Assembly (NCBI GenBank): GCA_946478645.1
Contig: CAMLCW010000061.1
Location: 1-18,410, forward strand
Source of the DNA: an uncultured Variovorax sp.
GTDB lineage: Bacteria; Pseudomonadota; Gammaproteobacteria; Burkholderiales; Burkholderiaceae
Reading direction: 5' to 3'
Length of the DNA stretch: 18,410 nt
Shown: positions 596 through 15,903 of the stretch, piece after piece
How the letters are laid out: each line of letters starts with the position of its first letter
Numbering within the stretch: the first letter of the stretch is position 1
Notes under the pieces: generated by a model
Told to the model about the DNA's origin: nothing
Database searches by the model: none
Seen by the model: the letters and a program-made list of their open reading frames with translations, nothing else
Position numbers and translations under genes: made by a program

Positions 596-645
596 CGCGC
601 AGAGAAAAATAAAAAGCGCAAAGAACATCGAATTTGTTTGATTTC

Positions 646-761: not shown

Positions 762-787
762 TTTCCGAAAGAAAATTATCCCGGAAA
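762..787. promoter_or_regulatory. Candidate operator: inverted repeat TTTCCG-N14-CGGAAA
   Basis: A perfect 6-base inverted repeat, TTTCCG (762-767) and CGGAAA (782-787), lies 37-62 bases before the ATG at 824, in the AT-rich region where the promoter of the four-gene operon should be. The 20-base centre-to-centre distance is about two helical turns, which suits a dimeric regulator. No clear -35/-10 pair can be assigned around it, so the call rests only on symmetry and position. Confidence 0.3.
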
Positions 788-797
788 TATTGTGTAT

Positions 798-810
798 CGC
801 CTCGAAGGCG
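798..810. repeat. Small hairpin next to the ribosome binding site of the 824 gene
   Basis: CGCCT (798-802) and AGGCG (806-810) form a perfect 5-bp stem with a 3-base loop. It ends two bases before the strong ribosome binding site AGGGGG (813-818), which is 5 bases from ATG 824. In the mRNA this would place a stable hairpin just upstream of the ribosome binding site, which may influence translation of the first gene of the operon. Confidence 0.3.
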
Positions 811-823
811 TCAGGGGGTTCTA

Positions 824-1405: not shown

Positions 1406-1836
1406 AGCAAACCGTGGCCACACGCTCCCGGTTGGCGTGCACCGTATTCGCCTTCTTCAATCCCCTGCCTTTCGGATTTTTCGTCGCGGCGCTGCTATTC
1501 GACGCGGTCTACGCGAACACCGCCGACGTGCTCTGGATCAAGTCGGCGGCTTGGCTGAATGCGATGGGACTGGTCTTCGCGATCATTCCGCGCCTGATCA
1601 ACCTGGTCCACGTCTGGATGCCTGCGAGCCGAAGCGCTCGCGCAGAAAAGCTGGATTTCTGGCTCCATTTCGCGGCCATTGCGCTGGCGATCCTCAATGC
1701 TTTCGTCCACAGCCGTGATGCATTCGGCGCCATGCCCGAAGGGCTCTGGCTCTCCGCCGCCACCGTGCTTCTTCTCGCGATCGGATTCATCGTCAGCGGA
1801 TGGCACCAAGCCACCCCGCGCGAGGTGCTGCCATGA
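1402..1836 (+). CDS. DUF2231-type inner-membrane protein
   Basis: This 144-residue protein starts at GTG 1402 inside the stop of the previous gene. It has four predicted membrane helices, at about residues 13-37, 48-70, 86-103 and 114-134. An early NPLPFGFFVAALLFD segment and a loop with HVWMP and basic residues follow the pattern of DUF2231, a four-helix family often encoded next to soluble quinoprotein-like dehydrogenases. The role of the family is not established. Four helices with His residues (70, 89, 103) are compatible with a redox or cofactor-linked membrane component, but that is inference. Its stop overlaps the start of the sorbosone-dehydrogenase-like lipoprotein by 4 bases (ATGA, 1833-1836), suggesting that the two products are made together and may form one periplasm-facing unit. 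Confidence 0.7.
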   Translation: MKQTVATRSRLACTVFAFFNPLPFGFFVAALLFDAVYANTADVLWIKSAAWLNAMGLVFAIIPRLINLVHVWMPASRSARAEKLDFWLHFAAIALAILNAFVHSRDAFGAMPEGLWLSAATVLLLAIGFIVSGWHQATPREVLP

Positions 1837-3155
1837 ACAAGCCACACTGGACCAAGGCCTGCGCCGCCATGATGCTGCTGGCGTTGGCGGGCTGCGAGAA
1901 GGCCACCTACGATGCCGCGCAGCAGTCGGGCCCGAACCCGCCGCTGCCCGAGGCGCAGAATTTTCTCGTCCCGCCGATGAAGGTGCCGCAAGGCACGGGC
2001 TGGGCCGAAGGCGAGAAGCCGGCGGTGGCCGAAGGCTTCGCCATCGAGAAAATCGCCTCCGGCCTGATGCATCCGCGCCAGCTCCTGGCATTGCCGAATG
2101 GCGACGTGCTGGTGGTCGAATCCAACAGTCCCGGCACGGAGCACGTGCTGTCGCCCAAGCAGATGATCGCTGGCATCGTCAAGAAGCGCTCCGGCAAAGG
2201 TGAGAAGGGCGGCAACCGCATCACCTTGCTGCGCAAGGTGGCGGGGCAGGACGGCGAATGGGAGAAGCACGTCTTCATCGAGAACCTGCATTCGCCTTTC
2301 GGGGTGCAGTTGATCGGCGACACGCTGTTCGTCGCCAACACCGACAACATCGTGAAGTACCGCTACACGGCGGGCGAGACGCGCATGTCCGACCCGGGTG
2401 TGGTGTTCACCGACCTTCCCGGCACCGTCAATCACCACTGGACGAAGGCGCTGCTTGCGAGCCCCGACGGCAAGCGGCTCTATGTCGGCGTCGGCTCCAA
2501 CAGCAACATCACCGAGAACGGCCTGGCCGTGGAATACCGCCGTGCCGCCGTGCTCGAGGTCGATGCGCAGACCGGGGGCAGCCGCATCTATGCCTCGGGC
2601 ATCCGCAACCCCACGGGGCTCGACTGGGAGCCGCAGACCGGCAAACTCTGGGTCATCGCCAACGAGCGCGACGAGATCGGCGCCGACCTCGTGCCCGACT
2701 ACCTCACGTCGGTGCAGGAAGGCGGCTTCTACGGCTGGCCCTACAGCTATTACGGCCAGCACGTCGATACGCGCGTGCGGCCGCAGCGTCCGGACCTGGT
2801 GGCCAAGGCCATCAAGCCCGACTACGCGCTCGGCTCGCATGTGGCGCCGCTGGGCCTGAAGTTCTATCGTGGCCGTAACCTGCCGGAAAAGTACCGCGGC
2901 GGCGCTTTCATCAGCAACCACGGCAGCTGGGACCGCACGCCCCTGAGCGGTTACGACGTGGTCTTCGTGCAGTTCAAGGACGGCATGCCGCAGGGCCTGC
3001 CGAAACCGATCGTCACCGGCTTTGCATCGGCGGACGAAGAAACCCTGAAGGGCGCGCCCGTGGGCCTGGCGGAGGATGCCGAAGGCGCACTGCTCATCGC
3101 GGACGACGTGGGCAACATGGTTTGGAGGGTCAGCCATGAAAACAAGCAACAGTGA
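1833..3155 (+). CDS. PQQ-dependent sugar (sorbosone) dehydrogenase-like lipoprotein
   Basis: This 440-residue protein belongs to the glucose/sorbosone dehydrogenase beta-propeller family. The start ATG 1833 overlaps the previous stop. Residues 1-20 are a lipoprotein signal ending in the lipobox ALAGC, with Cys21 as the lipidated residue, so the enzyme is probably membrane-anchored in the periplasm. Propeller-like segments follow: PRQLLALPNGDVLVVES (81-97), FGVQLIGDTLFVANTDNIV (156-174), TGLDWEPQTGKLWVIANERD (261-280) and GLAEDAEGALLIADD (411-425). The His pair in NHHWTK (200-205) and the arginine in SGIRNPTG (255-262) sit where soluble quinoprotein dehydrogenases keep their catalytic His and substrate Arg. 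Family members oxidise sugars or sorbosone using PQQ, but many homologues are untested and the substrate is unknown. No PQQ synthesis genes are in the window. The 3' end overlaps the thioredoxin/MsrA-like gene by 20 bases. Confidence 0.85.
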   Translation: MNKPHWTKACAAMMLLALAGCEKATYDAAQQSGPNPPLPEAQNFLVPPMKVPQGTGWAEGEKPAVAEGFAIEKIASGLMHPRQLLALPNGDVLVVESNSPGTEHVLSPKQMIAGIVKKRSGKGEKGGNRITLLRKVAGQDGEWEKHVFIENLHSPFGVQLIGDTLFVANTDNIVKYRYTAGETRMSDPGVVFTDLPGTVNHHWTKALLASPDGKRLYVGVGSNSNITENGLAVEYRRAAVLEVDAQTGGSRIYASGIRNPTGLDWEPQTGKLWVIANERDEIGADLVPDYLTSVQEGGFYGWPYSYYGQHVDTRVRPQRPDLVAKAIKPDYALGSHVAPLGLKFYRGRNLPEKYRGGAFISNHGSWDRTPLSGYDVVFVQFKDGMPQGLPKPIVTGFASADEETLKGAPVGLAEDAEGALLIADDVGNMVWRVSHENKQQ

Positions 3156-4041
3156 CCAGCCCCGAGAACTGGGAAAAGTCTCCTGGTTTCGTGACTTCGA
3201 CGAGGCCGTCGCCGAAAGCGCCCGCTCGGGCAAGCCTGTCCTCCTGCTTTTCCAGGAAGTGCCGGGATGTTCCAACTGCGTCGACTTCGGCCGCAACATG
3301 CTGACGCATCCGCTGTTCGTCGAAGCCATCGAGAACGAGTTCGTTCCCCTGGCGATCTTCAACAATGTCGAGGGCGCCGACAAGGTCGTATTGCAGAGGT
3401 TCAACGAGCCGGCCTGGAACAATCCGGTGGTGCGATTCATCCGCACAGACGGCGCCGACCTCGTCGCGCGGTTCGAGTTCTCCCTGAGTGCGATCGCTTT
3501 CCACATGCAAATGCGAAAGGCCATCGCCGCCAGCGGCCGGGAGATGCCCAGGTACTTCGAACTCCTGGCCGGCGAACTGAAGATCCTGTCGGGAACCAGC
3601 CAGATCGCGTACTACCAGACCCCGTGTTTCTGGTCTGGCGAGACAAGCCTGATCCAGCATCCGATGGTGTTGTCCACGGAAGCCGGCTGGATTGCCGGCG
3701 AAGAAGTGGTGAAGGTCCACTACGACCCGGAGATCGGGCCCTTGAGCGAATTGAACCGCTACGCAGCCGATCAGCAGTTCAGTTTCATCGAAGGCGATGA
3801 AAGGTCGTACCGGAAAGATGCAGAGCCGCAATACTATTTGAAGAAGTCCGTCTTCAGGTTCCTGCCGCTCGGCTTCACGCAAAGAAGCTGGTTGAATTTT
3901 GCGGTCGCCCACAACGAGGACGGCAAGGCCTGCCTGGACCCGCGGCAGCAGCAGTTGCTGAGAATGCACGCAGGCGATGGAGGCCGCGGCGCCGATGTCC
4001 TGTATGACCGGGACATGGAGGACGCCTGGCCTTGGGCGTGA
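3136..4041 (+). CDS. Thioredoxin-like protein with shortened MsrA-like C-terminal domain (VPGC/VPGU type)
   Basis: This 301-residue protein starts at ATG 3136 behind GGAGGG (3124-3129). An in-frame ATG at 3076 would overlap the previous gene far more and lacks this site. Residues 15-130 look like a thioredoxin fold: KPVLLLFQEVPGCSNC has a CxxC pair (Cys45, Cys48), preceded by the VPG motif of the VPGUxxT thioredoxin-like (seleno)protein family, where the first Cys is often selenocysteine. Residues 155-210 resemble methionine sulfoxide reductase A: CFWSGE (Cys164, Glu169) matches the catalytic CFWxxE, and STEAGWIAGEEVVKVHYDP matches the following MsrA core, but the GRTGHAE stretch and the HDPTQ motif are missing. 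It therefore keeps the reactive Cys but has lost much of the substrate pocket. No export signal is visible. Its coupling to the quinoprotein gene suggests a redox partner or maturation role. Confidence 0.75.
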   Translation: MKTSNSDQPRELGKVSWFRDFDEAVAESARSGKPVLLLFQEVPGCSNCVDFGRNMLTHPLFVEAIENEFVPLAIFNNVEGADKVVLQRFNEPAWNNPVVRFIRTDGADLVARFEFSLSAIAFHMQMRKAIAASGREMPRYFELLAGELKILSGTSQIAYYQTPCFWSGETSLIQHPMVLSTEAGWIAGEEVVKVHYDPEIGPLSELNRYAADQQFSFIEGDERSYRKDAEPQYYLKKSVFRFLPLGFTQRSWLNFAVAHNEDGKACLDPRQQQLLRMHAGDGGRGADVLYDRDMEDAWPWA

Positions 4042-4080
4042 GCCGGGCTGCGGTCCTGTCCCGCATTCGGACCATGCCCA
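4033..4080. terminator. Hairpin between convergent operons, possible bidirectional terminator
   Basis: The plus-strand operon ends at 4041 and the minus-strand operon at 4096, leaving 54 bases. TGGGCGTG (4033-4040) can pair with CATGCCCA (4073-4080) with one G-T wobble. Inside it, GGTCC (4052-4056) can pair with GGACC (4069-4073), sharing one base with the outer stem. There is no T tract on either strand, so it is not a classical intrinsic terminator. Its position makes a shared transcription stop plausible. Confidence 0.3.
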
Positions 4081-4095
4081 AGCACGACCGTCGGC

Positions 4096-4800
4096 TTAGA
4101 CCCCCAGGTACGCGAGTCGCAGGTTCTCGTCGGCCAGCAGGGCCTTCGCCTCGCCCGACATGACGACCTCGCCATGCTCGAGCACGTAGCCGCGCTGCGC
4201 GTAGCTGAGCGAGCGGTGCACGTCCTGCTCGACGAGCAGAATCGTGATGCCGCGCGCGCTGATCTGCGGCAGCTTCTCGAAGATGTCCTTGACCATGATC
4301 GGCGCGAGCCCGATCGAGGGCTCGTCCAGCAGCAGCAGGCGCGGCGAAGTCATGAGGGCGCGCCCGATCGCCAGCATCTGCTGCTCGCCGCCGCTGAATG
4401 ACCGCGCGAGCTGGCGCCGGCGCTCCTTCAGCCGAGGGAACAGGCTGTACACCCAGTCCAGGTTGTCGTTGGCACGCGACGCATCGCGCAGCAAGTCGCC
4501 GCCCACGCGGAGGTTGTCTTCCACCGCCATGTGGCCGAACAGCCTGCGGCCTTCCATGACCTGCGCCATGCCGAGCCGTGCGATCTGGTGTGCGGGCCGC
4601 CCGCCGATGCGCTCGCCAAGAAAGCGGATCTCGCCCGACATGGGCGAGATCGTGCCCATCACGGTGCGGATCAGCGTCGTCTTGCCGGCGCCGTTGGCGC
4701 CCACCATGCTGACGATCTCGCCTTCGCGCACGTCGAGGCTGACGCCGCGCAGCACCTGCACGTCGCCGTAGCCGGCGTCGAGTTCGCGCACCTCAAGCAT
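4096..4800 (-). CDS. livF: Liv-type ABC transporter ATP-binding protein LivF
   Basis: This 234-residue ATPase is of the hydrophobic amino acid (HAAT) importer type. Walker A is GANGAGKTT (34-42), the signature is FSGGEQQ (135-141) and Walker B is LLLLDEP (155-161). Gln192 in LLVEQD sits where most ABC ATPases have the switch His, as is normal for LivF. The ending LRLAYLGV is also typical. It pairs with LivG to power import through LivH/LivM at the inner membrane. The start overlaps the livG stop by 8 bases, and this is the last gene of the nine-gene minus-strand array. Homologues carry branched-chain amino acids, but also amides, urea, aromatic acids and other small carboxylates, so the name states the family and not the substrate. 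Confidence 0.93.
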   Translation of the reverse strand: MLEVRELDAGYGDVQVLRGVSLDVREGEIVSMVGANGAGKTTLIRTVMGTISPMSGEIRFLGERIGGRPAHQIARLGMAQVMEGRRLFGHMAVEDNLRVGGDLLRDASRANDNLDWVYSLFPRLKERRRQLARSFSGGEQQMLAIGRALMTSPRLLLLDEPSIGLAPIMVKDIFEKLPQISARGITILLVEQDVHRSLSYAQRGYVLEHGEVVMSGEAKALLADENLRLAYLGV

Positions 4801-5512
4801 GGGCTTCTCCCAGATAGGCGGACACCACTTGCGGATCGTTCGCGACGGCCTGCGGCTGCCCCTCGGCGATCTTGCGGCCGTGGTGCACCACCACGATGCG
4901 GTCGGACATGCGCATGATGGCCTTCATGTTGTGTTCGATGACAAGCACGGCCACGCCGTCGTTCCGCAGCGAGAGCACGAGATCGACCATCTCCGCCGTC
5001 TCGACCGTGGTGAGCCCCGCCATCACCTCGTCGAGCAGCAGCAGGCGCGGCGTGGTCGCGAGCGCCTTCGCGACCTCGAGGCGCTTGCGGCCCGACAGGG
5101 TGAGGGTGCGCGCCACCTGGTGCTCGCGCCCGCCCAGGCCCACGCGGTGCAGCACCGCTGCGGCCACGCGCTCGGCGTCGGCCCGGCGGCGATGGCGAAG
5201 AAAGGCGCCGATCATGGCGTTCTCCAGCACCGTGAGATCGCCGAACGGTTTGACGATCTGGAAGGTGCGCACCAGCCCGGCCGCGCACACGCGCGCGGTG
5301 TCGTGGCCGTCGATGCGCCGGCCGTCGAACCAGATCTGGCCGTCGGTCGGCTTGAGGAAGCCCGAGGCCATCGCGAACAGCGTGGTCTTGCCCGCGCCGT
5401 TCGGGCCGATGAGGCCGACGATTTCATGCGGCTCGACGCTGAAGCTGACGTCGTCGGACGCGCGCAGGCCACCGAAGCTCTTGCCCACGCCGCGAAATTC
5501 GAGAAGGCTCAT
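4793..5512 (-). CDS. livG: Liv-type ABC transporter ATP-binding protein LivG
   Basis: This 239-residue ATPase is the second nucleotide-binding subunit. ATG 5512 is preceded on the minus strand by AAGGAGG, which fixes the start, although the frame stays open far upstream. Walker A is GPNGAGKTT (36-44), the Q-loop region is VRTFQIVKPF (81-90), Walker B is LLLLDEVMAGL (157-167) and the switch region is VIEHNM with His194. The ABC signature is the degenerate LTLSGRKRLEVAKAL instead of LSGGQ. This form is usual in one LivG subgroup, so the pair has one canonical (LivF) and one degenerate site. The start overlaps the livM stop as ATGA (5509-5512). Confidence 0.93.
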   Translation of the reverse strand: MSLLEFRGVGKSFGGLRASDDVSFSVEPHEIVGLIGPNGAGKTTLFAMASGFLKPTDGQIWFDGRRIDGHDTARVCAAGLVRTFQIVKPFGDLTVLENAMIGAFLRHRRRADAERVAAAVLHRVGLGGREHQVARTLTLSGRKRLEVAKALATTPRLLLLDEVMAGLTTVETAEMVDLVLSLRNDGVAVLVIEHNMKAIMRMSDRIVVVHHGRKIAEGQPQAVANDPQVVSAYLGEAHA

Positions 5513-6543
5513 CGCGCGGCCTCCTTCGCGCCGGCATGGCGCGCCGGCAACGTACCCGCACGCCGCGCAGCGGCGCGCTCGCGCCAGCCGAGCCACACGT
5601 CCCAGAGGCCGCGCGGGTTCCAGCGGATCACGATCATCAAGAGCAGGCCGTAGAGCATCATGTCGACGCCGACCATGCCGTCCGACAGCGCGCGCGCCAG
5701 CTCCTCGCCCGGAAGCAGCAGCAGCGCGCCGACCACCGGGCCCCAGAGCGTGCCGCGCCCGCCGATGATGCAGACGACCGCGATCACCACGCCCAGGTTG
5801 GCGCCGAACACCTTGTCGGGGCTGATGTAGAGCACGAACTGGGCATAGAAGGTGCCGCCCAGCGCGGTCAGCGCGGCACTGATCATGGCGGCCGCGAGCT
5901 TGTAGCGCCGCACCGGAACGCCGAGCGCCAGCGCCGCATCCTGGTCGTTGCGCACGGCGGCCAGGTAGTAGCCGAAGCGGCTGCGCAGGATCGCATGGTT
6001 GACCCACAGCGCGCCCGCAGCAAAGACCAGCGCCACCGCGTAGTAGAACTCCTTGCGCGTGTGCTGGAACTGCAGCGGCGCGTCGCGCAGCAGCGTGACC
6101 TCCATGCCGCGCGGCCCGCCGAGCAGCGCGTCGGCGTTCTCGACCAGCGTCTTGAGCACCATCGCGGTGGCGATGGTCGCCAGCGCGAAATAGGCGCCGC
6201 GCAGATGCATGCACGACAACCCCACGATCACCGCCGCCACCATGGCCAGCAGCGCGCCGGCCCCCATGCCCAGCCAGGGGCTGATGCCAAGGTTCACGAA
6301 CAGCCAGGTGGAGGTGTAGGCACCGATGCCGAAGTACGCGGCATGCCCGAGCGACAGCTGCCCGGCAATGCCGCCGAGCACGTTCCATGAGAGCGCAAGG
6401 TACGCGTACAGCACCGTGAGCACGGCGATCGACAGCAGGTACTGGCTGCCGCTTGCGAGCGGCGCCAGCGCGGCCAGGACGAGCACCGCCGCGAGCGCCT
6501 TGCGCGCCGCCGGGGTGCGGAAGGAGGGCAGGGCGGCGTTCAT
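5509..6543 (-). CDS. livM: Liv-type ABC transporter permease LivM
   Basis: This 344-residue permease is rich in hydrophobic helices. Family marks include LSLGHAAYFGIGAY (63-76), near the membrane entry of LivM proteins, and the cytoplasmic coupling segment AVRNDQDAALALGVPVRRYK (196-215), which contacts the ATPase. The helix pair GVVIAVVCIIGGRGTLWGPV (251-270) is also characteristic. The C-terminal tail after residue 310 is basic and soluble. ATG 6543 overlaps the livH stop by 4 bases, and the stop overlaps livG by 4 bases, so the membrane and ATPase subunits are translationally coupled. It forms the translocation channel with LivH. Confidence 0.92.
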   Translation of the reverse strand: MNAALPSFRTPAARKALAAVLVLAALAPLASGSQYLLSIAVLTVLYAYLALSWNVLGGIAGQLSLGHAAYFGIGAYTSTWLFVNLGISPWLGMGAGALLAMVAAVIVGLSCMHLRGAYFALATIATAMVLKTLVENADALLGGPRGMEVTLLRDAPLQFQHTRKEFYYAVALVFAAGALWVNHAILRSRFGYYLAAVRNDQDAALALGVPVRRYKLAAAMISAALTALGGTFYAQFVLYISPDKVFGANLGVVIAVVCIIGGRGTLWGPVVGALLLLPGEELARALSDGMVGVDMMLYGLLLMIVIRWNPRGLWDVWLGWRERAAARRAGTLPARHAGAKEAAR

Positions 6544-7421
6544 TCGTTCTCCACGCCGAAGAGGCCGCTCGGGCGAAAGTACATGACACCGAGGAACAGC
6601 AGGAAGATCAGGGCTTCGGCGTAGGTCACCGGAATGAGCTGGCTGCCCACCGACTCCAGAACGCCGACGAGGATGCCGCCCCAGAACGCGCCCGCCACCG
6701 AACCGATGCCGCCCAGCACCACGATCACGAAAGCCCGCAGGCCGAAGATGTCGCCGACGAAGGGATTCACCGGATAAAGCGGCAGCAGCAGTGCACCGGC
6801 CACGCCCAGCACACCGAGGCCGATCGCGAACGAGAGCTGGTAAATGCGTGCGCTGTCGATGCCGAGCACGCTCGCGGCCTCGCGGTCCTGGCCCGTCGCG
6901 CGGATGGCGCGGCCCATGGCCGTGTGGCGCAGGAACGCCACGAGCGCAGCCGTGATGGCGCAGGCCAGCACGAGGCCCGCGATTTGCGGATAGGTGAAGA
7001 TCAGGTCGCCCGCCACCAGCACTTCGTTGGCCCACGGGCTGTCGACGTTGCGGCTGTCGGGCCCGACCAGCGCGAGGAATCCGTAGTCGAGAAAGATCCA
7101 CAGCCCGGTGGTGAAGATCAGCACGCCGATGGGCTCGCGGCTCGTCTCCTTGCGGTAGATCGCATCGATGAGCCAGCGCTGCACCGCGTAGCCCACTGCG
7201 AACAGGGCCACGGCCGTGAGCGGAGCCGTCAGAAGCGGATGGAGTCCGGCATGCTGCGCCAGCGTCCACGAGACATACATGGCCATCATCAGGAAGGAGC
7301 CATGGGCGAAGTTGATGATCTTCATCACGCCGAACTGCAGGCTCAGCCCGAGCGCGATGAGGCCGTAGACGGCGCCGCTGGCGATGCCGCTCAGCAGGGC
7401 CTGGATGAGAGTGGTTGACAC
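6540..7421 (-). CDS. livH: Liv-type ABC transporter permease LivH
   Basis: This 293-residue permease has the LivH start pattern SGIASGAVYGLIALGLSLQFG (11-31) followed by INFAHGSFLMM (36-46). The coupling loop is RAIRATGQDREAASVLGID (171-189), and the ending YFRPSGLFG is standard for the family. The first codon is GTG 7421, with GAGGA about nine bases upstream on the minus strand. No in-frame ATG fits the family start better. A 30-base gap separates it from the binding-protein gene, and its stop overlaps livM as ATGA (6540-6543). It should form the inner-membrane channel with LivM. Confidence 0.92.
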   Translation of the reverse strand: MSTTLIQALLSGIASGAVYGLIALGLSLQFGVMKIINFAHGSFLMMAMYVSWTLAQHAGLHPLLTAPLTAVALFAVGYAVQRWLIDAIYRKETSREPIGVLIFTTGLWIFLDYGFLALVGPDSRNVDSPWANEVLVAGDLIFTYPQIAGLVLACAITAALVAFLRHTAMGRAIRATGQDREAASVLGIDSARIYQLSFAIGLGVLGVAGALLLPLYPVNPFVGDIFGLRAFVIVVLGGIGSVAGAFWGGILVGVLESVGSQLIPVTYAEALIFLLFLGVMYFRPSGLFGVENE

Positions 7422-7451
7422 GCGTCGGGGTCCTCGTGGGGCGGGGGTGCG

Positions 7452-8705
7452 TCAGGGCTTGGCGGCGTTCATCGGCCACACCATGCGGTAGCTCTTGGAG
7501 GCCACCTCCTGCGGCCACACCGTGCGGTACTGGCCTTCGGGCGTGATCTGCTGCATGGCAAAGCGCTTCTTCGGGTTCTGGCCCTTCTCGTCGATCGCGA
7601 TGTCGTAGCCGAGCAGCTTGTTGAGGTCGGTGCCTTCGATGCGCGTCGTTGCGAGCGCATTGCGGATCGCCTCCGGCTCGGCCTTGCCCGCGCGCTCCAG
7701 CGCGTCCTTGATGACCCACACCGCGCCATAGGCGCTGACCGACAGCTCGTTGGGCTCGACCTTGTTGGCGGCGACGAACTCGTCCCAGAAGCGCTTGGCA
7801 AAGGGCGTGGTGACCGCGCTCTCGTAGCCGGCCCAGCCATTGGTGGTGAACACGTTGGCCGCGGCCGCCTTGCCCACGAGCGGCAGGAACTGGCTGTCGA
7901 TCTGCCCGGCCGCGCTGCCGATGTAGGCCATCGCCTCCACGCGCATCTGGGCCAGCAGCTTGTGCAGCTGCACCGCGTCCGCGGCGTACGAAGTGACCGT
8001 GACGATGTCCGGCTTCTTGCCCTTGATCTTCAGCACCAGCGGGCGCAGGTCGGGCGAGTTCGGCGGATAGCCCTCGTCGAGCACCACCTCGATGCCCGCG
8101 GCCTTGAATTTCGCACGCAGCGTGTTGGCCATGTCCTGGCCCCAGTCGGTGTTTTCGTAGACCATCGCGACGGTCTTGGCCGGCTTGCCGCTGGCCTTGC
8201 CGGCGAAGCTCACGAAGTCGACCATGCTCTCTGCATTGCCCGACGCGGGCACCTGCACCGGGCGGAACACGTACTTGAAGCCGCGCTCGGTGATGTCGGC
8301 CTTCGCCGCCAGGTCGACGACCCAGGGCGTGCGGTTCTTCTCGGCCACCGCGGTGGCGGGAAAGGTCACGCCGCTCTGGAACGCGCCCAGCAGCACCGGT
8401 GTCTTCTCGCGCGTGATCAGGCGCTCGACCTCGGTGATCGCCACCTTGGCGTCGCCGCGCGAATCGACCTCGACCAGCTGCAGCTGGGCGCCGCCCATCG
8501 ACTTGATGCCGCCCGCCGCATTGATGTGCTTGACGGCGAGGTGCGTGGCACGCGACATGTCCTTGCCGATGGAAGCCGCGGCGCTGCCCGACAGCGGAAT
8601 GAGATAGCCGATCTTCACGGGCTCGGCCGCCATGGCGGCAGAAAAGCCCAATATGGCGCAAAGCGCGAGGCCTGCGGCGGCGCGCCGGTGGATGAATTGG
8701 TTCAT
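7452..8705 (-). CDS. Periplasmic substrate-binding protein of the Liv-type transporter
   Basis: This 417-residue type I periplasmic binding protein determines what the neighbouring importer carries. Residues 1-26 form a signal peptide ending in SAAMA, and the mature protein starts AEPVKIGYLIPLSGS. Typical LivK-like stretches are HINAAGGI (60-67), VYENTDWGQD (182-191) and SAYGAVWVIKDALERAG (324-340). Start ATG 8705 has AAGGAG a few bases upstream. A second in-frame ATG at 8732 overlaps the stop of the hydrolase gene as ATGA but would put nine polar residues before the signal peptide, so 8705 is preferred. Pocket residues cannot be assigned by eye, so the ligand is unknown. It is longer than classic LivK and closer to the versions linked to aromatic or amide catabolism, which is only suggestive. 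Confidence 0.9.
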   Translation of the reverse strand: MNQFIHRRAAAGLALCAILGFSAAMAAEPVKIGYLIPLSGSAAASIGKDMSRATHLAVKHINAAGGIKSMGGAQLQLVEVDSRGDAKVAITEVERLITREKTPVLLGAFQSGVTFPATAVAEKNRTPWVVDLAAKADITERGFKYVFRPVQVPASGNAESMVDFVSFAGKASGKPAKTVAMVYENTDWGQDMANTLRAKFKAAGIEVVLDEGYPPNSPDLRPLVLKIKGKKPDIVTVTSYAADAVQLHKLLAQMRVEAMAYIGSAAGQIDSQFLPLVGKAAAANVFTTNGWAGYESAVTTPFAKRFWDEFVAANKVEPNELSVSAYGAVWVIKDALERAGKAEPEAIRNALATTRIEGTDLNKLLGYDIAIDEKGQNPKKRFAMQQITPEGQYRTVWPQEVASKSYRMVWPMNAAKP

Positions 8706-8728
8706 GAGGTTGTCTCCTTCTCTTTGAG

Positions 8729-9958
8729 TCATGCGGGGAATATGGAGGCAGCCATGGAGGGCGGCCGCTGGTCGATGCAGGCGTGGACCGCGTCCACCAG
8801 CCGGTGGGCGCGCTCGTTGAGCAACACGCCCGGGCCCATGCGGTTCATCACGTAGCCCAGGCCGAGGCGTCGCGCGGGCGATGCGATGCCCAGCGAGCCG
8901 CCCGCGCCGACGTGGCCGAAGGCATCCGCGCCGATGCAGGCGCTGTCCTGTCCCGTCGCGCGGTTGTCCATCTGCCGCATGAAGCCGGCGCCGAAGCGGG
9001 TTGGCACGCGCAGGCAGGCATCGTCGTGGGTGGCCGCGCTGACCTCGACGGCGCGCGCGAGCGTGTCTTCGCGCAGCACCCGCGTGGTGCCGCGCGCGCC
9101 CCCCATGGCCAGCGTGCCGTAGAGACGCGCCAGGCTGCGCGCGTGGGTGACGCCGCCCGCCGCGGGCACGCCAGCGGCGCGGCCGGCGCGGCTGTTGAAG
9201 CCGCTCGGGCGCCATCCGCCGGTGTTCTTCATGTACAGCGCGGTGGGCGACTGGGGCTCGTGCAGCAGCGCGTGCTCGAAGGCATTGCGCGCCGACGCCA
9301 GCGGCGGGGGCGGCGCGATGCGCGCGACGCGCGGCTCCTCGGATTCGGGCAGGCCGATCCAGAAGTCGAGGCCGAGCGGATCGGCGATCCGGTCGCGAAA
9401 GTAGTCGCCGGGCAACTGGCCCGACAGCCGCCGCACCAATTCGCCGACCAGCCATCCGAAAGTCAGCGCGTGATAACCCACGCGCGTGCCGGGTGCCCAG
9501 AAGGGGCGCTCCCGCGCCAGCAGCCCGGTCATGCGCGCCCAGTCGAATGCGTCCCCCTCGGCCAGCGGCGCGCGCAGCGCGGGCAGGCCGGCACTGTGGT
9601 CCAGCAGCATGCGCGGCGTGATCGACTGCTTGCCTTCGGCGGCGAACGCCGGCCAGTAGTGCGCCACCGGCCGGTCGAGGTCGAGTTCGCCAGCCTCGGC
9701 GAGCTGGTGCGCGCAGAGCGCGGTCGCGGGCTTGGTGTTGGAGAACACCACGCAGACCGTGTCGCGGCGCCATGGCGTGCCACCGGGCGCGTCGGCCCAA
9801 CCGCCCCAGAGATCGATCACGGGGCGCCCGTCGATCTCGACCGCCAGCGAGGCGCCGAGCTCCTCGCCCTCGGCCACGCTGCGCTCGAAGAGCGCGCGCA
9901 CCGGGAGGAACGCAGCATCGCAGTGGCCCTCGACCCGGGCCGCCAGCGCGTTCGTCAT
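8729..9958 (-). CDS. Serine hydrolase of the beta-lactamase/EstB family (S12-like)
   Basis: This 409-residue enzyme has a class C beta-lactamase fold. The nucleophile motif SxxK is SNTK (Ser73-Lys76) within VVFSNTKPATA. The second motif is the Tyr of GYHALTFGWLVGEL (Tyr162), and the third is HVGAGG (349-354) in place of KTG, as in EstB-type esterases. MLLDHSAGLPAL (117-128) is another family mark. There is no signal peptide, so it works in the cytoplasm, which argues against antibiotic resistance and for hydrolysis of an ester, lactone or amide. ATG 9958 overlaps the stop of the dioxygenase gene as ATGA. Its place between the ligase/dioxygenase genes and the importer suggests that it processes the imported compound or a pathway intermediate. 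Confidence 0.88.
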   Translation of the reverse strand: MTNALAARVEGHCDAAFLPVRALFERSVAEGEELGASLAVEIDGRPVIDLWGGWADAPGGTPWRRDTVCVVFSNTKPATALCAHQLAEAGELDLDRPVAHYWPAFAAEGKQSITPRMLLDHSAGLPALRAPLAEGDAFDWARMTGLLARERPFWAPGTRVGYHALTFGWLVGELVRRLSGQLPGDYFRDRIADPLGLDFWIGLPESEEPRVARIAPPPPLASARNAFEHALLHEPQSPTALYMKNTGGWRPSGFNSRAGRAAGVPAAGGVTHARSLARLYGTLAMGGARGTTRVLREDTLARAVEVSAATHDDACLRVPTRFGAGFMRQMDNRATGQDSACIGADAFGHVGAGGSLGIASPARRLGLGYVMNRMGPGVLLNERAHRLVDAVHACIDQRPPSMAASIFPA

Positions 9959-10887
9959 CTCATGAACGGCGCACGCGCGCCGAAGCCCAGCAGGTAGCGC
10001 GCCTCGTGGGAAAGCGTGGCGACGACCTCGGCCGGCAGGGTGCTGGTGAAGTCCGCGAAGTTGCGCAGCCACGAAACGTTGTAGTTGCACAGGATGGCGC
10101 GGCGCTGGCCGTCGGTGTCGTTGGGCCCCGAGCGGTGCCACGTGTTCGACAGCCAGATCGCTACCGAGCCCGCGGGCGCGGTGAGCGTGACTTCGCCGTC
10201 CATCGGGCCGCTGCCCCAGGGTGGCGACTTGCGCAGCTTGTGGCTGCGCGGCATGACGCGCGTGGCGCCGTTCTCCGCGGTGAAGTCGTCGAGCATCCAC
10301 ACGTTCTGCAGCGTCAGCGGAAATTCCGGCAGCGGCTCGGGGATCTGCCCGAGCGGTGCATCCACGTGCCACGCACCGCCGCCCGTGCGCGGGCCGATGC
10401 TGGTGGACTGGAAGTCGTGCAGGTTGCAGTCCTCGCCGAGCACGTGGCGCACCATCGGCAGGATCACCGGGTGCTCGGCCAGCGGGATCAGGTCCGGCGC
10501 CTTGTTCAGCAGGTTCCACACGCGCTGCGACTGGTCATGGTCGAACAGCGTGGGCAGGTGCAGGAAGTTCTTCGACACCTTCTGGATCGGCACCGGCCAG
10601 CGCGTGTCCGCGTTGTCGCGGCGGTACTGGTGCACCCGCGCGACCATGCGGCGCGCCTCGGCGTCGCTCACGGTGTAGTGCTTGCGGTAGTAGGCCTCGA
10701 TCTCCGCGTCGTCCTCGTGCTGTTCGGTGTCCAGCGGAAAGGGCTCGGCGAGCTCCTTGGCCATGAGCTGCGCGACGCGCTCGCGCGCCCGCGCGAGCTG
10801 GCCGGCATCGAGCACGTTCTCGATGACTGCATAGCCTTCTTCGGCCAACTGGTGCTTCAAGGCGTCGATGTCGATCTGTCGTGTCAT
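9955..10887 (-). CDS. PhyH-family 2-oxoglutarate/Fe(II) dioxygenase, second copy
   Basis: This 310-residue protein belongs to the phytanoyl-CoA dioxygenase superfamily, whose members hydroxylate carboxylates, amino acids or CoA thioesters using Fe(II), O2 and 2-oxoglutarate. The metal triad is visible as HVD in GGAWHVDAPLG (His174, Asp176) and His251 in SNTWHRSGPN. Arg262 or Arg263 (GQRRAILCNYN) would bind 2-oxoglutarate. DDFTAENGATRVMPRSH (200-216) is the standard PhyH core. The region from 45 to 165 carries a long charged insertion not shared with the other copy. The start ATG 10887 has AGGAA upstream, and a 59-base gap separates it from the ligase gene. It is a diverged paralogue of the 12485-13351 gene, so the two may act on different positions or intermediates. 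Confidence 0.88.
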   Translation of the reverse strand: MTRQIDIDALKHQLAEEGYAVIENVLDAGQLARARERVAQLMAKELAEPFPLDTEQHEDDAEIEAYYRKHYTVSDAEARRMVARVHQYRRDNADTRWPVPIQKVSKNFLHLPTLFDHDQSQRVWNLLNKAPDLIPLAEHPVILPMVRHVLGEDCNLHDFQSTSIGPRTGGGAWHVDAPLGQIPEPLPEFPLTLQNVWMLDDFTAENGATRVMPRSHKLRKSPPWGSGPMDGEVTLTAPAGSVAIWLSNTWHRSGPNDTDGQRRAILCNYNVSWLRNFADFTSTLPAEVVATLSHEARYLLGFGARAPFMR

Positions 10888-10946
10888 GTCTCTGGTTCCT
10901 GTCTTTCGTTCGTGGGGCGGTTGCCGGTCTCGAGGGCGGCCGGTGC

Positions 10947-12488
10947 TCAGGCCGTGGCGCCGACCGGGGCGAGTGTGTTGCGCGCGAGCTTGCCGACGCT
11001 GGTCCTGGGCAGGCGGTCGAGCACGCCGATCGCGCGCGGCACCTTGTAGCCGGCCAGCTCGGTGGCACAGTGCCGCAGCAGGCGCTCCACGTCGACGCTG
11101 CGGCCGGGAGCCGTGGTCACCCAGGCGTGCACCACCTGGCCCATGCGTGCATCGGGCGCGCCGAAGGCGGCGGCTTCCCCGACCTCGGGGCAGGCGAGCA
11201 GCACCTGCTCGATCTCGATCGGGTAGACCTTGAAGCCGGCGACGTTGATGGTGTCGTGCTGGCGGCCGTGAATGTGCACGTAGCCGTCGGCGTCGATGTG
11301 GGCGACGTCGCCGGTATAGAGCCATCCGCCCCGCAGCGCCTCCGCGGTCTGCGCCGGCAGGTTGCGATAGCCGGCCATCACGTGCGGGCCGCGCACGCGG
11401 ATCTGGCCCGGCTTGCCGGGCGGCAGCACGGCCGCGCCGTCGTCGAGCGCCACCACCTGCAACTCGCCGCCCGGCACCGGCAGGCCGACCGAGCCGGCGC
11501 GGCGCTCACGGTGCATCGGATTGAAGGTCAGGCAGGGGCCGGCCTCACTCATGCCGTAGCCCTCGTGGATGGCGCAGCCGGTGGCCTGCTCGAAGCGCTC
11601 CAGCGTCTCGCGCGGCAGCGGCGCGGCACCGGAGAAGCAGGCCCGCAGGCTCGCGAGGCGCGCACGCGAGAGCGGCTGTTTCAAGAGGTCGTAGAAGATG
11701 GTGGGCGCCGCCGACATCAGCGTGACCCGGTGGTCGGCGATCGCCTGCAGCACCGCGGGCGCATGGAAGCGCCGGTGGATGACCAGCTCGCCGCGCGCAT
11801 GCAGGCACAGATGCAGCGACATCGACACCGCCGAGACGTGGAACAGCGGCATGGTGCACAGCACCACCTCGGCCGCGCGGCGCGTCGGCAGCCAGGCGTC
11901 GCGCTGCGCGATGTTCCAGGCGATCTGGCGGTGCGTGATGTTCACGCCCTTGGGCCGGCCGGTGGTGCCGCCGGTGTATTGCAGCGTCGCGAGGTCGTCG
12001 TGGCAGGGCAGAAGCTCTGGCAGCGCGCAAGACTGTGCGAGCAGCCCGACCAGCCCCCGGCCGTCGCCGGTCGGCCAGAAGGCCTCCGCCGCGAGGTGCG
12101 GGCAGAGGCGGCGCGGGTCCACGCCGACGCTGTCGTCGAACAGCACCATCGCGGGCTCGGCGTCGGCGAGCATCAGCGCGAGTTCGCGTTCGCTGTAGCC
12201 CGGGTTCAGCGCCACCACCTGGGCGCGCAGCGCGTGCACCGCGAGCGTCGCCACCGCCAGATCGAGCGAGTTGCGCATCAGCAGCACCACGCGGTCGCCC
12301 ACGCCCGCGTGCGCGCCCAAGCGCCGCGCCACGACCCCGACGAGGCCCGCGTACTCTGCGTAGTTCAGCCGCGTGCCTTCGAAGAACAAGGCGGGAGCCT
12401 CGGGGCATTCGGAGGCCGCATCGCGCAGCAGATGGACCACCGATTCGGGCACCGGGCCGAGCGCCGGCGCGCTGCTCATGCCGCTCAT
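10947..12488 (-). CDS. AMP-forming acyl-CoA ligase / acyl-CoA synthetase
   Basis: This 513-residue adenylate-forming enzyme would activate a carboxylic acid as acyl-AMP and then acyl-CoA. The P-loop is YTGGTTGRPKG (171-181). Further core motifs are GYGMSEAGPC (310-319), WLYTGDVAHID (389-399), RQHDTINVAGFKVYPIEIE (409-427) and the C-terminal catalytic lysine in PRTSVGKLAR (Lys500). All catalytic positions are intact and there is no carrier-protein domain, so a free CoA ligase is most likely. ATG 12488 is preceded by AGGAAGG on the minus strand and overlaps the upstream dioxygenase stop as ATGA. A second ATG lies three codons in. The substrate is unknown: medium-chain, aromatic or branched acids are all possible. 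Confidence 0.92.
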   Translation of the reverse strand: MSGMSSAPALGPVPESVVHLLRDAASECPEAPALFFEGTRLNYAEYAGLVGVVARRLGAHAGVGDRVVLLMRNSLDLAVATLAVHALRAQVVALNPGYSERELALMLADAEPAMVLFDDSVGVDPRRLCPHLAAEAFWPTGDGRGLVGLLAQSCALPELLPCHDDLATLQYTGGTTGRPKGVNITHRQIAWNIAQRDAWLPTRRAAEVVLCTMPLFHVSAVSMSLHLCLHARGELVIHRRFHAPAVLQAIADHRVTLMSAAPTIFYDLLKQPLSRARLASLRACFSGAAPLPRETLERFEQATGCAIHEGYGMSEAGPCLTFNPMHRERRAGSVGLPVPGGELQVVALDDGAAVLPPGKPGQIRVRGPHVMAGYRNLPAQTAEALRGGWLYTGDVAHIDADGYVHIHGRQHDTINVAGFKVYPIEIEQVLLACPEVGEAAAFGAPDARMGQVVHAWVTTAPGRSVDVERLLRHCATELAGYKVPRAIGVLDRLPRTSVGKLARNTLAPVGATA

Positions 12489-13351
12489 GCCGCGCCTTCC
12501 TGGCGCTTCTTCCCGCGCTTCAGGTCGCTCGCTTCCCAGACGGTGCGCCGGCCCTGTTCCACGCCCAGCAGCGTGATCGGGTCGCCGTTGTCGATATGGC
12601 CGTACTGGCCCTTGTAGATGCCATAGCCGCACAGCTCCTGCAGCCGGCGCGGAAAACGGCGCGCGATGTCGCGCGCGATGCCCAGCTGCAGGTTCTCCTG
12701 CTGCCGCATCCAGCCGGCGCAGTAATAGCACGACAGGGCGTAGCGCCGGCTCTCGGTGGTGTTGGCGCCACCCTTGTGCCAGAGCGCGCTGTCGAACAGC
12801 ATCACGCTGCCGGCTTTCATGGTGGCCTGAACGGTCTCCACCTCGGCGCCGTAGGGCGGGGGCGACGGCGCGCGGTGGCTGCCCGGCACGATGTGCGTGG
12901 CGCCGTTCTCCGCCGTGAAATCGCTCAGCGCCCAGATCGCGTTGACGGCCACTGGCGGACGCGGGCGCGGCAGCGGCAATTGCTGCGTGTCCTCGTGCAG
13001 CGGCTGGGCCTCCTGGCCGGGCCCGAGCGTGAGCGAGCACAGCGACGACAGCAGCAGCTCCACATCGAGCAGCCGCTCGGCCAGGCCCAGCACCTGCGGC
13101 TGCAGCGGCACCTGCCAGAACAGCGGGTCGTATACCAGCAGGTTGTTGATGCGCACCGTGTTCGTGCCCTCGAAGGACGTGCGGGCATAACCGAAGCCGT
13201 GCTCGGCTTCCACGCGCAGCAGCGCTTCGGTCAGCGCCAGCACGTCCTGGCGCGGAATGATGTCGGGCAGCACCACGTAGCCGTCGCGCTCGAACGCCTC
13301 CTGCCAGCGGGCAAGGCGTTCGTCCGATGCGGCCCGGGAAGATGTCTCCAT
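12485..13351 (-). CDS. PhyH-family 2-oxoglutarate/Fe(II) dioxygenase, first gene of the array
   Basis: This 288-residue protein is a second phytanoyl-CoA dioxygenase-type enzyme. The iron ligands are HED (His119, Asp121) in QPLHEDTQQ and His192 in SALWHKGGAN. Arg202 or Arg203 (ESRRYALSCYY) would hold 2-oxoglutarate, and SDFTAENGATHIVPGSH (143-159) is the family core. It shares this core, the AGSV segment and the WHxxGxN segment with the 9955-10887 protein but little elsewhere. ATG 13351 begins at the natural PhyH N-terminus (WQEAFERDGYVVLPD); a more distal in-frame ATG at 13447 would add 32 low-complexity residues across the regulatory region and is not preferred. It opens the nine-gene array and is read away from the AraC-type regulator. 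Confidence 0.87.
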   Translation of the reverse strand: METSSRAASDERLARWQEAFERDGYVVLPDIIPRQDVLALTEALLRVEAEHGFGYARTSFEGTNTVRINNLLVYDPLFWQVPLQPQVLGLAERLLDVELLLSSLCSLTLGPGQEAQPLHEDTQQLPLPRPRPPVAVNAIWALSDFTAENGATHIVPGSHRAPSPPPYGAEVETVQATMKAGSVMLFDSALWHKGGANTTESRRYALSCYYCAGWMRQQENLQLGIARDIARRFPRRLQELCGYGIYKGQYGHIDNGDPITLLGVEQGRRTVWEASDLKRGKKRQEGAA

Positions 13352-13512
13352 GGTTCTCGTCGTCGTTGGTGATGGGAGGCGATCTTGCGGTGAACCCGCG
13401 AGCGCGCACAGTGCGCCCGGTCCACGGCGGCCATGCATTGCGTCCATGGCAGGGGCGGGGTTCGCCCTGTCTCGGGGGCCCGCGCCGCGTCGCTAAGATC
13501 AGCCGCATTCCC
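13352..13512. promoter_or_regulatory. Divergent control region between the catabolic array and its AraC-type regulator
   Basis: These 161 bases separate two divergent starts, so they should hold both promoters. Visible structure: a direct repeat GTCCACGGC (13420-13428) and GTCCATGGC (13442-13450), matching 8 of 9 bases and spaced 22 bp, about two helical turns, as AraC-family sites often are. There is also a dyad GCCATG-N9-CATGGC (13430-13450) and a short palindrome GCGCA-CAG-TGCGC (13404-13416). TAAGAT (13494-13499) resembles a -10 box for the regulator and lies only 13 bases before its ATG, with no good -35 at normal spacing. The sites are pattern-based candidates. Confidence 0.5.
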
Positions 13513-14451
13513 ATGAGCGACCCGAGCTATCACCGAACCACCGAGCGTGTTGCGCCGCGCGACCAGTTCGCCTATTGGCGCGATGCCATCTCCGACGCCT
13601 ACGTGCCGCTGGAGCCCGAGCGCGACAGCGCACTCGGCTTTGCGGGCCGCATCGACGGCCTCATGCTTCCCGCGCTGCGCAGCTCGACCATCACCGCCCA
13701 GGCGCACGAGGTGCGCCTCTCGGCCAGCGGCCTTGCGCGCCGCGGCGGCTCGCCGTTCTTCGTGAACCTGCTGCGCGACGGCGAGGCGGTCGTCACGCAA
13801 GACGGCCAGACGCTGCTGGCGCGGCCGGGCGACGTCTACGTGGTCGACTGCGATTCGCCCTGGCAGGTGAACTTCCGGCGCGGCTTCAGCATGTTCTGCA
13901 TCGAGATCGACGATGCGCTGCTGCGTCCGCGGCTCGGCCGGCGCGGACGCCTCGCCTCGCCCGTGCTCGGCGGCGACAGTGGCACCGGCCGCATCCTCGC
14001 GAGCTACATGCGGCTGGTGCACGAACTGCCGCCCGACGACCTGCTGCAGGTGCAGTCGCTCATGGTGGGACACTGCAGCGAGCTGCTCTCGCGCGCGCAG
14101 CAGGCCGAGCCGCCCGAGGCGCGTGCGCGCCGGGTGCGCCACGAAACCCTCGAACGGATCCTCGCGCTGGTGCACCGCCGGCTGCAGGACCCACAGCTCA
14201 CGCCCGAATCGGCCTGCGCCGAACTCGGCATCTCCCGCAGCTACCTCTTCAAGATCCTCGCCGAGGGCGGCCACAGTTTCAGCGGCTACGTGCGCGGATG
14301 CCGGCTCGACGAATGCCGCCGGCTGCTCATCGAGCAGCCGCGCCGGCCGGTGTCGGACATCGCGGCCGACTGGGGCTTCACGGACGTGTCGTCGTTCAAC
14401 CGGGCCTTCCGCGCGCGCTTCGGCCATCCGCCGGGGAGACTGCGGCAGTAG
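13513..14451 (+). CDS. AraC-family transcriptional regulator
   Basis: This 312-residue regulator has an N-terminal AraC-binding-like domain (about 15-190), opening with the family pattern FAYWRDAISDAYVPLE (19-34). The C-terminal DNA-binding domain has two helix-turn-helix units, ESACAELGISRSYLFKIL (232-249) and PVSDIAADWGFTDVSSFNRA (279-298), ending FRARFGHPPGRLR. This N-domain is found in activators of catabolic and oxygenase operons. ATG 13513 has no ribosome binding site, and TAAGAT ends 13 bases before it, so the message may have a very short leader. An in-frame ATG at 13327 exists but would run through the control region. Its divergent position makes it the likely regulator of the nine-gene minus-strand array, with the inducer probably the imported compound or a CoA derivative. 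Confidence 0.9.
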   Translation: MSDPSYHRTTERVAPRDQFAYWRDAISDAYVPLEPERDSALGFAGRIDGLMLPALRSSTITAQAHEVRLSASGLARRGGSPFFVNLLRDGEAVVTQDGQTLLARPGDVYVVDCDSPWQVNFRRGFSMFCIEIDDALLRPRLGRRGRLASPVLGGDSGTGRILASYMRLVHELPPDDLLQVQSLMVGHCSELLSRAQQAEPPEARARRVRHETLERILALVHRRLQDPQLTPESACAELGISRSYLFKILAEGGHSFSGYVRGCRLDECRRLLIEQPRRPVSDIAADWGFTDVSSFNRAFRARFGHPPGRLRQ

Positions 14452-14565
14452 AGGCGGTCGAGGGGGTCCGGCGTGGCGCCAAACCCACGAATCTATACCC
14501 AAATATGTAAACAAATGGGTTAAAAAACGTCCGTCGCGTTACATTCTCGGGTTCACGAGGGCAAC
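14452..14565. promoter_or_regulatory. AT-rich promoter region of the glycosyltransferase operon
   Basis: The second half of this 114-base gap is AT-rich against its surroundings (14488-14530). It holds an inverted repeat ACCCA (14497-14501) and TGGGT (14516-14520) flanking an A/T core, then a run of six A. TACATT (14540-14545) could be a -10 box, without a convincing -35. CGAGGG just before GCAAC forms the ribosome binding site of ATG 14566. The inverted repeat overlapping the expected promoter could be an operator. Confidence 0.4.
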
Positions 14566-15903
14566 ATGACCGACGCGCATCACGGCAGGCCACGATCGAG
14601 GCTCTACCTGCCCGTCGTCGCCAAATTCTTCATCGCACTGGCAGGCGCCGGCGCCTGGATGGGTTTTTCCATCTGGGCGGCGGGACCCTGGCTCGCCGAC
14701 CTGCGGCAGTACGTGGGCATCGTGTTCGCGGTGTTCCTGGTCTACGGCATCGCCGTGATTCCCGGTTTCATGAACGCGTTCCTCGCGATCAGCCTGATGC
14801 TCGACCGCCGGCCCGTGCGCCGGCCGCTCGAGGCCTATCCGCCGATCTCCATCCTCGTCGCAGCCTACAACGAGGAAGCCTCGATCGAGGAAACCCTGGT
14901 CAGCATCGACCGGCAGAACTACCCGGGCGAGCTGCAGGTCATCGTCATCAATGACGGCTCGAAGGACGGCACCGCACAGGTGGTCCGGGCGGCCGAGGCG
15001 CGGTTTCCGTGGCTGACCTTCGTCGACCTTGAACAGAACGGCGGCAAGGCGCGCGCGCTGAACATCGGCTTCAAGTCGGTGCGCCACGACCTCGTCGTCA
15101 CGGTCGATGCGGACTCGTTCCTCTATCGCGGCGCACTGGTCAACATCGTCGAGCGCTACCGCGCCGACCCGCCCAACACGCGCGCGGTGGCGGGCAAGAT
15201 CCTGGTGCGCAACTCGCGGCTCAATTGGCTCACGCGCTGCCAGGAATGGGACTACTTCCACGGCATCGCCTCGATCAAGCGGGTGCAGTCGCTGTTCCAG
15301 GGCACGCTGGTGGCGCAGGGCGCCTTCTCGATCTACGACCGCGCCGCGCTGGCGGAGGTGGGCGGCTGGCCCGAGTGCGTGGGCGAGGACATCGTGCTCA
15401 CCTGGGCGCTGCTCAAGGCCGGCTACCGCGTCGGCCACTGCGAGGATGCCTGCCTGTTCACCAACGTTCCGGCCACGGTCGGGCAACTGGTCAAGCAGCG
15501 CCAGCGCTGGGCGCGCGGCATGGCCGAGGCCTTCGTGCAGCACCCGGGCATCCTGCTGCAGCCGCGGCTCTCGACCTTCTTCATCTACTGGAACGTGTTC
15601 TTCCCATGGCTCGACGTGGCATTCACCCTCGGCTTCATCCCGGGCGTGGTGGCCGCGCTGTTCGGCTACTACTGGATCGTCGGCCCGATGACGCTGGCGC
15701 TGCTGCCCGCGGCCTTCGCGCTGAGCTTCCTGATGTTCTCGATCGAGCGCCGCATGTTCAGGAGCACGGGCTTGGTGGTGCGGCGGAATTTCCAGGGCTT
15801 CTTCGTCTATGTGCTGCTCTACAGCTTTCTGCTGCAGCCGGCGAGCGCGCTGGGCTACCTGGACGAATTGCTGAGAAAGCCCAAATCGTGGGGAACGAAA
15901 TGA
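14566..15903 (+). CDS. Processive family 2 glycosyltransferase, PgaC/HmsR-like polysaccharide synthase
   Basis: This 445-residue inner-membrane synthase has two N-terminal hydrophobic segments (about 18-40 and 48-75), a cytoplasmic GT-A domain, then three or four C-terminal helices (338-430). Catalytic marks are VAAYNEE (98-104), INDGSKDGT (128-136), DAD (181-183), GED (273-275) and QRQRW (311-315). These are the D,D,D,QxxRW set of processive enzymes that polymerise and export beta-linked polymers such as poly-N-acetylglucosamine. The tail PKSWGTK is also typical of the group. No PgaB deacetylase or PgaD partner is encoded next to it, so the polymer cannot be named. The stop overlaps the barrel-protein start as ATGA (15900-15903). 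Confidence 0.85.
   Translation: MTDAHHGRPRSRLYLPVVAKFFIALAGAGAWMGFSIWAAGPWLADLRQYVGIVFAVFLVYGIAVIPGFMNAFLAISLMLDRRPVRRPLEAYPPISILVAAYNEEASIEETLVSIDRQNYPGELQVIVINDGSKDGTAQVVRAAEARFPWLTFVDLEQNGGKARALNIGFKSVRHDLVVTVDADSFLYRGALVNIVERYRADPPNTRAVAGKILVRNSRLNWLTRCQEWDYFHGIASIKRVQSLFQGTLVAQGAFSIYDRAALAEVGGWPECVGEDIVLTWALLKAGYRVGHCEDACLFTNVPATVGQLVKQRQRWARGMAEAFVQHPGILLQPRLSTFFIYWNVFFPWLDVAFTLGFIPGVVAALFGYYWIVGPMTLALLPAAFALSFLMFSIERRMFRSTGLVVRRNFQGFFVYVLLYSFLLQPASALGYLDELLRKPKSWGTK

Follow-up and report, generated by a model that had tools for sequence, protein, structure and literature searches.

A contig of an uncultured Variovorax sp. (GenBank assembly GCA_946478645.1, contig CAMLCW010000061.1, positions 1 to 18,410 of the forward strand; these 18,410 nucleotides are referred to throughout as the window) encodes at 4096–13351 an array of nine genes, all on the minus strand, with a divergent AraC-type regulator gene beside the first of them. 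In order of transcription these are PhyH1, a predicted Fe(II)/2-oxoglutarate oxygenase (288 amino acids (aa), 12485–13351); LIG, a predicted AMP-forming acid:coenzyme A (CoA) ligase (513 aa, 10947–12488); PhyH2, a second predicted Fe(II)/2-oxoglutarate oxygenase (310 aa, 9955–10887); an EstB-like S12 serine hydrolase, here EstB (409 aa, 8729–9958; PF00144, 249.3 bits); a LivK-type periplasmic substrate-binding protein (417 aa, 7452–8705; PF13458, 204.5 bits), with an N-terminus that by eye resembles a signal peptide; a LivH-type permease with a GTG start (6540–7421; PF02653, 131.5 bits); a LivM-type permease (5509–6543; PF02653, 133.6 bits); a LivG-type ATPase (4793–5512; PF00005, 95.2 bits, and PF12399, 42.7 bits); and a LivF-type ATPase, the final gene (4096–4800; PF00005, 103.5 bits). 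The AraC-type regulator (312 aa, 13513–14451, plus strand; PF12833, 75.1 bits, and PF14525, 72.9 bits) is separated from PhyH1 by 161 bp. All ten proteins exceed Pfam cut-offs, and none lies above an NCBIfam cut-off among the matches listed (the best 25 rows for LivF, LivG and the ligase). Successive junctions measure −4, +59, −4, +23, +30, −4, −4 and −8 bases. The original prediction, made from the sequence letters, had described nine same-strand genes with a divergent AraC-type gene, comprising two PhyH oxygenases, a CoA ligase, an EstB-like hydrolase and a full Liv importer; coordinates, strands and Pfam assignments bear this out, and the gaps are indeed no wider than 59 bases, although the overlaps number five (four of 4 bases, one of 8), not the six then counted.

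Both oxygenases combine the PF05721 domain with the HxD...H facial triad and the 2-oxoglutarate arginine of the PhyH family (H119-x-D121, H192 and R203 in PhyH1; H174-x-D176, H251 and R262 in PhyH2), and the triad is invariant in 60/60 and 59/59 rows of two alignments. In Fe/2-oxoglutarate halogenases Ala or Gly replaces the triad Asp; with that Asp invariant in both alignments, neither protein fits the halogenase type. The closest solved sequence relative of PhyH1 is DhiD (8zyb; E 1.1e-16, vs 3.5e-5 for the human phytanoyl-CoA dioxygenase PAHX, 2a1x), a protein for which no described reaction came to light; PAHX is absent from the sequence matches of PhyH2 even with a limit of E 1. By structure, both resemble the tailoring oxygenases AndA, SptF, FtmOx1 and AsqJ; PAHX does not appear among the 50 structural matches listed for each, an absence that excludes nothing. 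In sequence, then, both proteins stand nearer to natural-product oxygenases than to PAHX, which makes a CoA thioester the less likely substrate for hydroxylation.

LIG (PF00501, 277.8 bits; PF13193, 62.3 bits) is predicted, from its AMP-binding and C-terminal domains and its A10-motif lysine, to be an ANL acyl- or aryl-CoA ligase; the lysine (GK) is present in 11/11 loci, and strict patterns find the P-loop in 8/11 and A5 in 9/11. Its closest solved sequences are malonyl-CoA, feruloyl-CoA and oxalate-CoA ligases (4fuq, 8wev, 5ie0), matched over nearly the full length at 228–240 bits. The hydrolase is likewise assigned, from PF00144, an SxxK Ser/Lys pair and a catalytic Tyr, as a putative EstB-like family VIII serine hydrolase, with SNTK and YHxLT motifs in all 11 loci; fenoxaprop-p-ethyl hydrolase (7y3z) and the carboxylesterases 8j5v and 5gmx are its closest solved relatives (nearly full-length, 250–267 bits). 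Its N-termini are not signal-like by eye, and the enzyme is probably cytoplasmic.

A binding protein, two BPD_transp_2 permeases and two ATPases encoded together make up a Liv/HAAT-type ATP-binding cassette importer, with Walker A in both ATPases, Walker B in LivG and the SGGEQQ signature in LivF in 11/11 loci. To judge its ligand, five LivK proteins (window, L001, L005, L008, L011) were aligned to E. coli LivJ, in which we take Tyr18, Ser79, Thr102, Tyr202 and Glu226 to be the anchors for an alpha-amino acid. All 5/5 keep Ser79 and Tyr202 and have Tyr18 replaced by Ser, Ala100 by Leu, Thr102 by Ala or Gly, and Glu226 by Ala. The anchors expected of a branched-chain amino acid importer are thus replaced at Tyr18, Thr102 and Glu226 in an alignment of 24–25% identity; without Glu226 an amino group would have no partner, and the ligand is therefore probably not an alpha-amino acid, while retention of Ser79 may leave room for a carboxylate.

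Conservation of the array was read in other genomes. A scan of genome contigs with six exact PhyH1 peptides, which detects close relatives only, gave 13 loci. In ten of them the complete set of nine genes runs along one strand in the order of the window, and eight of these ten also have the AraC gene divergent. The other three (L009, L012, L013) have PhyH1 without the remaining genes nearby, the L009 contig stopping 0.5 kb past PhyH1, and in each of these genomes the best PhyH2 match is its own PhyH1-type gene. Among 268 genomes of the Achromobacter family, 14 carry PhyH1 (E ≤ 1e-50), namely the ten complete loci of the peptide scan and four more, and all 14 have the nine genes in order; an AraC orthologue is divergent from PhyH1 in 11 of these 14. 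The flanks mostly differ among Achromobacter, Advenella, Pusillimonas, two further Alcaligenaceae and the window, with two broad protein families recurring to the left of the array in both Achromobacter and L007, and one of the two in L010 as well. The nine-gene order is conserved beyond chance, and the array is hereafter called the cassette. Conserved synteny was the check that the original prediction had set itself, and the pattern it had named as contrary, arrays lacking the importer or the enzymes in most relatives, did not occur in the one family covered. PhyH1 and LIG also stay closely joined: the window and 8/10 other loci measured have a 4-base overlap, and the two Advenella loci have a spacing of 2 bases.

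The cassette is also present or absent as a block. Within the genus searched (43 genomes), PhyH2 occurs in exactly the eight genomes that carry PhyH1; two independent sets of eight would coincide with a chance of 1/C(43,8), about 7e-9, shared ancestry being ignored. In carrier L003 the stretch of about 10.4 kb between the gene to the left and the first gene to the right holds the nine genes plus AraC and no others. The left-flank gene is found in 31/43 genomes of the genus, and the site was read, at gene level, in five that have this gene and no cassette (L037, L038, L039, L041, L042). In three of them (L037, L038, L041) the site is empty: genes that flank the cassette in carriers adjoin one another, 35, 70 and 85 bases apart between match ends, the right neighbour in L041 being the second gene to the right in L003. 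Pairwise distances of the nine proteins correlate across ten loci (r 0.80–0.99; L004 was omitted, its LivH having been missed by open reading frame calling and recovered by tblastn), which supports but does not prove a joint history, because related species give such correlation even without linkage. In a PhyH1 tree of 73 rows, 46 of them unlabelled, a branch with support 100/98 splits 23 cassette-labelled rows from four stand-alone ones; the 23 comprise ten read loci, the window, four identical or near-identical database copies of read loci, one Achromobacter protein labelled by name and seven labelled only by a presumed PhyH2 relative in the same genome. Cassette PhyH1s thus form one clade, separate from the four stand-alone PhyH1s. 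The latter (L009, L012, L013, L047) are 62–66% identical relatives in other lineages; that of L047 adjoins genes that resemble, judged from protein starts, housekeeping genes.

Further afield, PhyH2 was found in 1/399 genomes sampled from the order and 1/398 from the phylum, each time only in the centre genome, a known carrier, and in 0/74 genomes of the family of G005; PhyH1 was found in 2/398 phylum genomes, one a known carrier and the other with a stand-alone copy. Matches at E ≤ 1e-20 number 3518 proteins for PhyH1 vs 436 for PhyH2. Relatives of PhyH2 occur in Azospirillum and Tistlia as sequence matches whose gene context was not placed. At least 15 genomes besides the window seem, by eye, to be common to the listed relatives of PhyH1 and PhyH2 (one further pair with differing sources is left out of this count), which is no more than a hint of linkage. 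Carriage of the cassette on plasmids or phages was considered and rejected: PhyH2 is unmatched in phages (E 1e-20) and plasmids (E 1e-30), PhyH1 is unmatched in plasmids (E 1e-40), and viral contigs hold no PhyH2 relative. Relatives of EstB occur in 13 plasmid records; of three regions inspected, two have other gene sets and the third is unannotated there. The Tistrella mobilis plasmid pTM2 encodes an S12 hydrolase of 52% identity (L043, 8941–10158), with an AMP-binding protein, an NAD(P)/FAD-dependent oxidoreductase and a TRAP importer encoded in its vicinity; this may be an analogous set for uptake and cleavage, in which a similar hydrolase and a ligase go with a different importer.

Control of the cassette probably lies with the divergent AraC-type gene. 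In 9/9 AraC–PhyH1 gaps aligned (those of L048–L050 left out) a TGGACG core starts 66–71 bases from the araC start codon and ends 89–136 bases before PhyH1. This element would be a candidate operator, and the window copy (13434–13452, minus strand; core 13441–13446) is by eye among the most diverged. Terminator-like sites number two, fewer than expected from shuffled sequence (3.5), and Rfam gave no match.

Taken together, we consider it fairly probable (about 0.72) that the nine genes form a self-contained cassette for importing a compound other than an amino acid, cleaving it, and then activating and twice oxidising the resulting acid. LivK would capture a small compound, probably bearing a carboxylate, ester, lactone or amide, and LivHMGF would carry it into the cell, where EstB would cleave it and LIG would activate the acid thereby freed. 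The two oxygenases, predicted to be non-redundant, would each attack one inert carbon, either simply hydroxylating it or going on from hydroxylation to dealkylation, and the product would feed the general acyl-CoA metabolism of the host. This succession of import, hydrolysis, activation and two oxidations, like the catabolic direction itself, is what we infer from the protein families, which cannot tell the order of the last steps. No beta-oxidation genes would be needed beside the cassette, because its product would enter the general acyl-CoA metabolism; as that metabolism is encoded elsewhere in such hosts, the missing genes do not argue against catabolism. Of the interpretation first offered for the array, the notion of one dedicated import-and-metabolise unit holds up, with complete carriers and empty sites on its side; hydroxylation of CoA thioesters is not favoured, and the order of steps, the double hydroxylation and the choice of ester, lactone or amide as substrate are so far predictions.

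Several observations weigh against a dedicated catabolic cassette. The block has neither an enzyme for the product of the two oxidations nor a beta-oxidation gene, and a complete pathway cannot be written. A binding pocket read from single residues at 24–25% identity is weak evidence of the ligand, and the Tistrella hydrolase, at 52% identity, sits in a different gene set. The AraC gene is absent from 3/14 cassettes (the Advenella loci L005 and L007, and L051), and a promoter scan of 3950–14600 gave no sigma-70-like site. Half-blocks within the genus were probed through PhyH1 and PhyH2 only, so that enzyme-less importers are possible there, and in two of the five non-carriers read (L039, L042) the site is occupied by other DNA, about 3.5 and about 7.6 kb long.

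A more specific, tentative version of the catabolic reading, to which we give a distinctly minor share of belief, is that these bacteria eat a bulky plant or fungal natural-product ester, which the natural-product-type oxygenases, a kind known from the synthesis of such compounds, would dismantle in tandem, the block being gained and lost whole. Among the rivals, a route resembling alpha-oxidation survives best, although it seems unlikely: LIG would first make the CoA thioester of an imported acid, which the oxygenases would then hydroxylate, much as PAHX hydroxylates phytanoyl-CoA in peroxisomes. The place of the LIG gene between two PhyH genes, its overlap with PhyH1 and the shared PF05721 domain fit such a route; no 2-hydroxyacyl-CoA lyase, which alpha-oxidation of phytanic acid would call for, was found among the window proteins scanned, and the poor likeness of both oxygenases to PAHX (E 3.5e-5 for PhyH1, no match to E 1 for PhyH2) speaks against it as well. 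A little less probable still is salvage and tailoring, in which an imported precursor would be modified into a product that is used or released rather than eaten. The resemblance of the oxygenases to AndA, SptF, FtmOx1 and AsqJ is what would be expected of it, but the array pairs an importer with a hydrolase, its nine genes include no exporter, transferase or carrier protein, and the block occurs all or none, as would a nutrient-use module. We hold it very improbable that the enzymes serve detoxification by inactivating some pollutant or poisonous natural product once it is inside the cell. In favour are the patchy occurrence (14/268) and a herbicide esterase as the nearest solved relative of the hydrolase, yet a five-gene importer for a toxin would make little sense, and PADLOC, an anti-phage defence library and so a weak test, matches none of EstB and the two oxygenases. 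That an importer operon and an unrelated enzyme operon adjoin by accident is hardly credible, for although gaps of 19–55 bases part EstB from LivK, and 30–107 bases LivK from LivH, in the loci measured, 14/14 blocks are complete, the ten with names spanning three genera and two further Alcaligenaceae lineages, with mostly different flanks, empty sites have neither module and the protein distances correlate.

Other genes lie on either side of the array. A glucose/sorbosone dehydrogenase-like protein (PF07995) and an overlapping thioredoxin-like protein (PF13899) are encoded at 1833–4041 (plus strand), convergent with LivF, and this pair is unmatched in the 13 loci compared. Beyond the regulator, the plus strand encodes a family 2 glycosyltransferase and, after it, a protein weakly matching the PgaA beta-barrel (14566–16868; E 0.0014, below the cut-off), which are perhaps an exopolysaccharide pair, and then a 139-aa protein with a BLUF blue-light sensor domain (16899–17318; PF04940, 84.6 bits). 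SnoaL-like and Glyoxalase_4 proteins adjoin at 17338–18348 (minus strand), and a similar pair stands in L007 (G057) at 3597–4843, 5–6 kb before the cassette. The pair was considered as extra pathway genes and set aside: close glyoxalase relatives (E ≤ 1e-60) occur in 19/268 family genomes and only 2/14 carriers, one of which (G002) has its copy on a different contig from the cassette. As a caveat to this rejection, the looser E of 1e-40 gives 85/268 genomes and 13/14 carriers, with matches about 47–50% identical, which most members of the genus possess irrespective of the cassette. Three neighbouring proteins were unmatched in PHROG.

Operons that join import to enzymes offer a good way in to unknown nutrients, since the compound can be learned from the binding protein. 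Knowing what LivK binds would indicate what nine genes, recognised by family only in the window and 14 other genomes, are for, and would also reveal the part that PhyH oxygenases play in bacterial catabolism. Two distinct PhyH oxygenases are present here, with no role given in the literature searched; PhyH genes are mentioned in the portions consulted of PMC6449761, PMC11192067 and PMC5987411, which could not be tied to this block. The original prediction knew of no described pathway with this set, and a search by title and opening of abstract, with most subscription journals outside its scope, likewise found no description of the combination.

Compared with known systems, each part falls into an established family. 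The importer has the same five kinds of component as the Liv/HAAT system of E. coli (LivJ/K-HMGF), in the order K-H-M-G-F, but its LivK is only 24–25% identical to E. coli LivJ and LivK, and the window importer falls below the NCBIfam cut-offs for Liv and urea models in all matches listed. LIG shares the A10 lysine with malonyl-, feruloyl- and oxalate-CoA ligases, yet remains below NCBIfam cut-offs in the best 25 of 108 rows. The window hydrolase shares the SxxK and Tyr motifs of EstB-like family VIII esterases, whereas its score of 212 bits against the NCBIfam esterase/beta-lactamase LipL model is far below the 650-bit cut-off. PAHX belongs with the window oxygenases to PF05721 and differs from them in sequence, with a weak match to PhyH1 and none to PhyH2, and the natural-product Fe/2-oxoglutarate oxygenases AndA, SptF, PrhA, FtmOx1, AsqJ and DhiD are 16–26% identical to the window proteins; those with known roles come from fungal or actinobacterial biosynthesis and are not known from import operons. 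Judged by its sequences, then, the array assembles known families into what would be an import-plus-catabolism operon with a new enzyme set.

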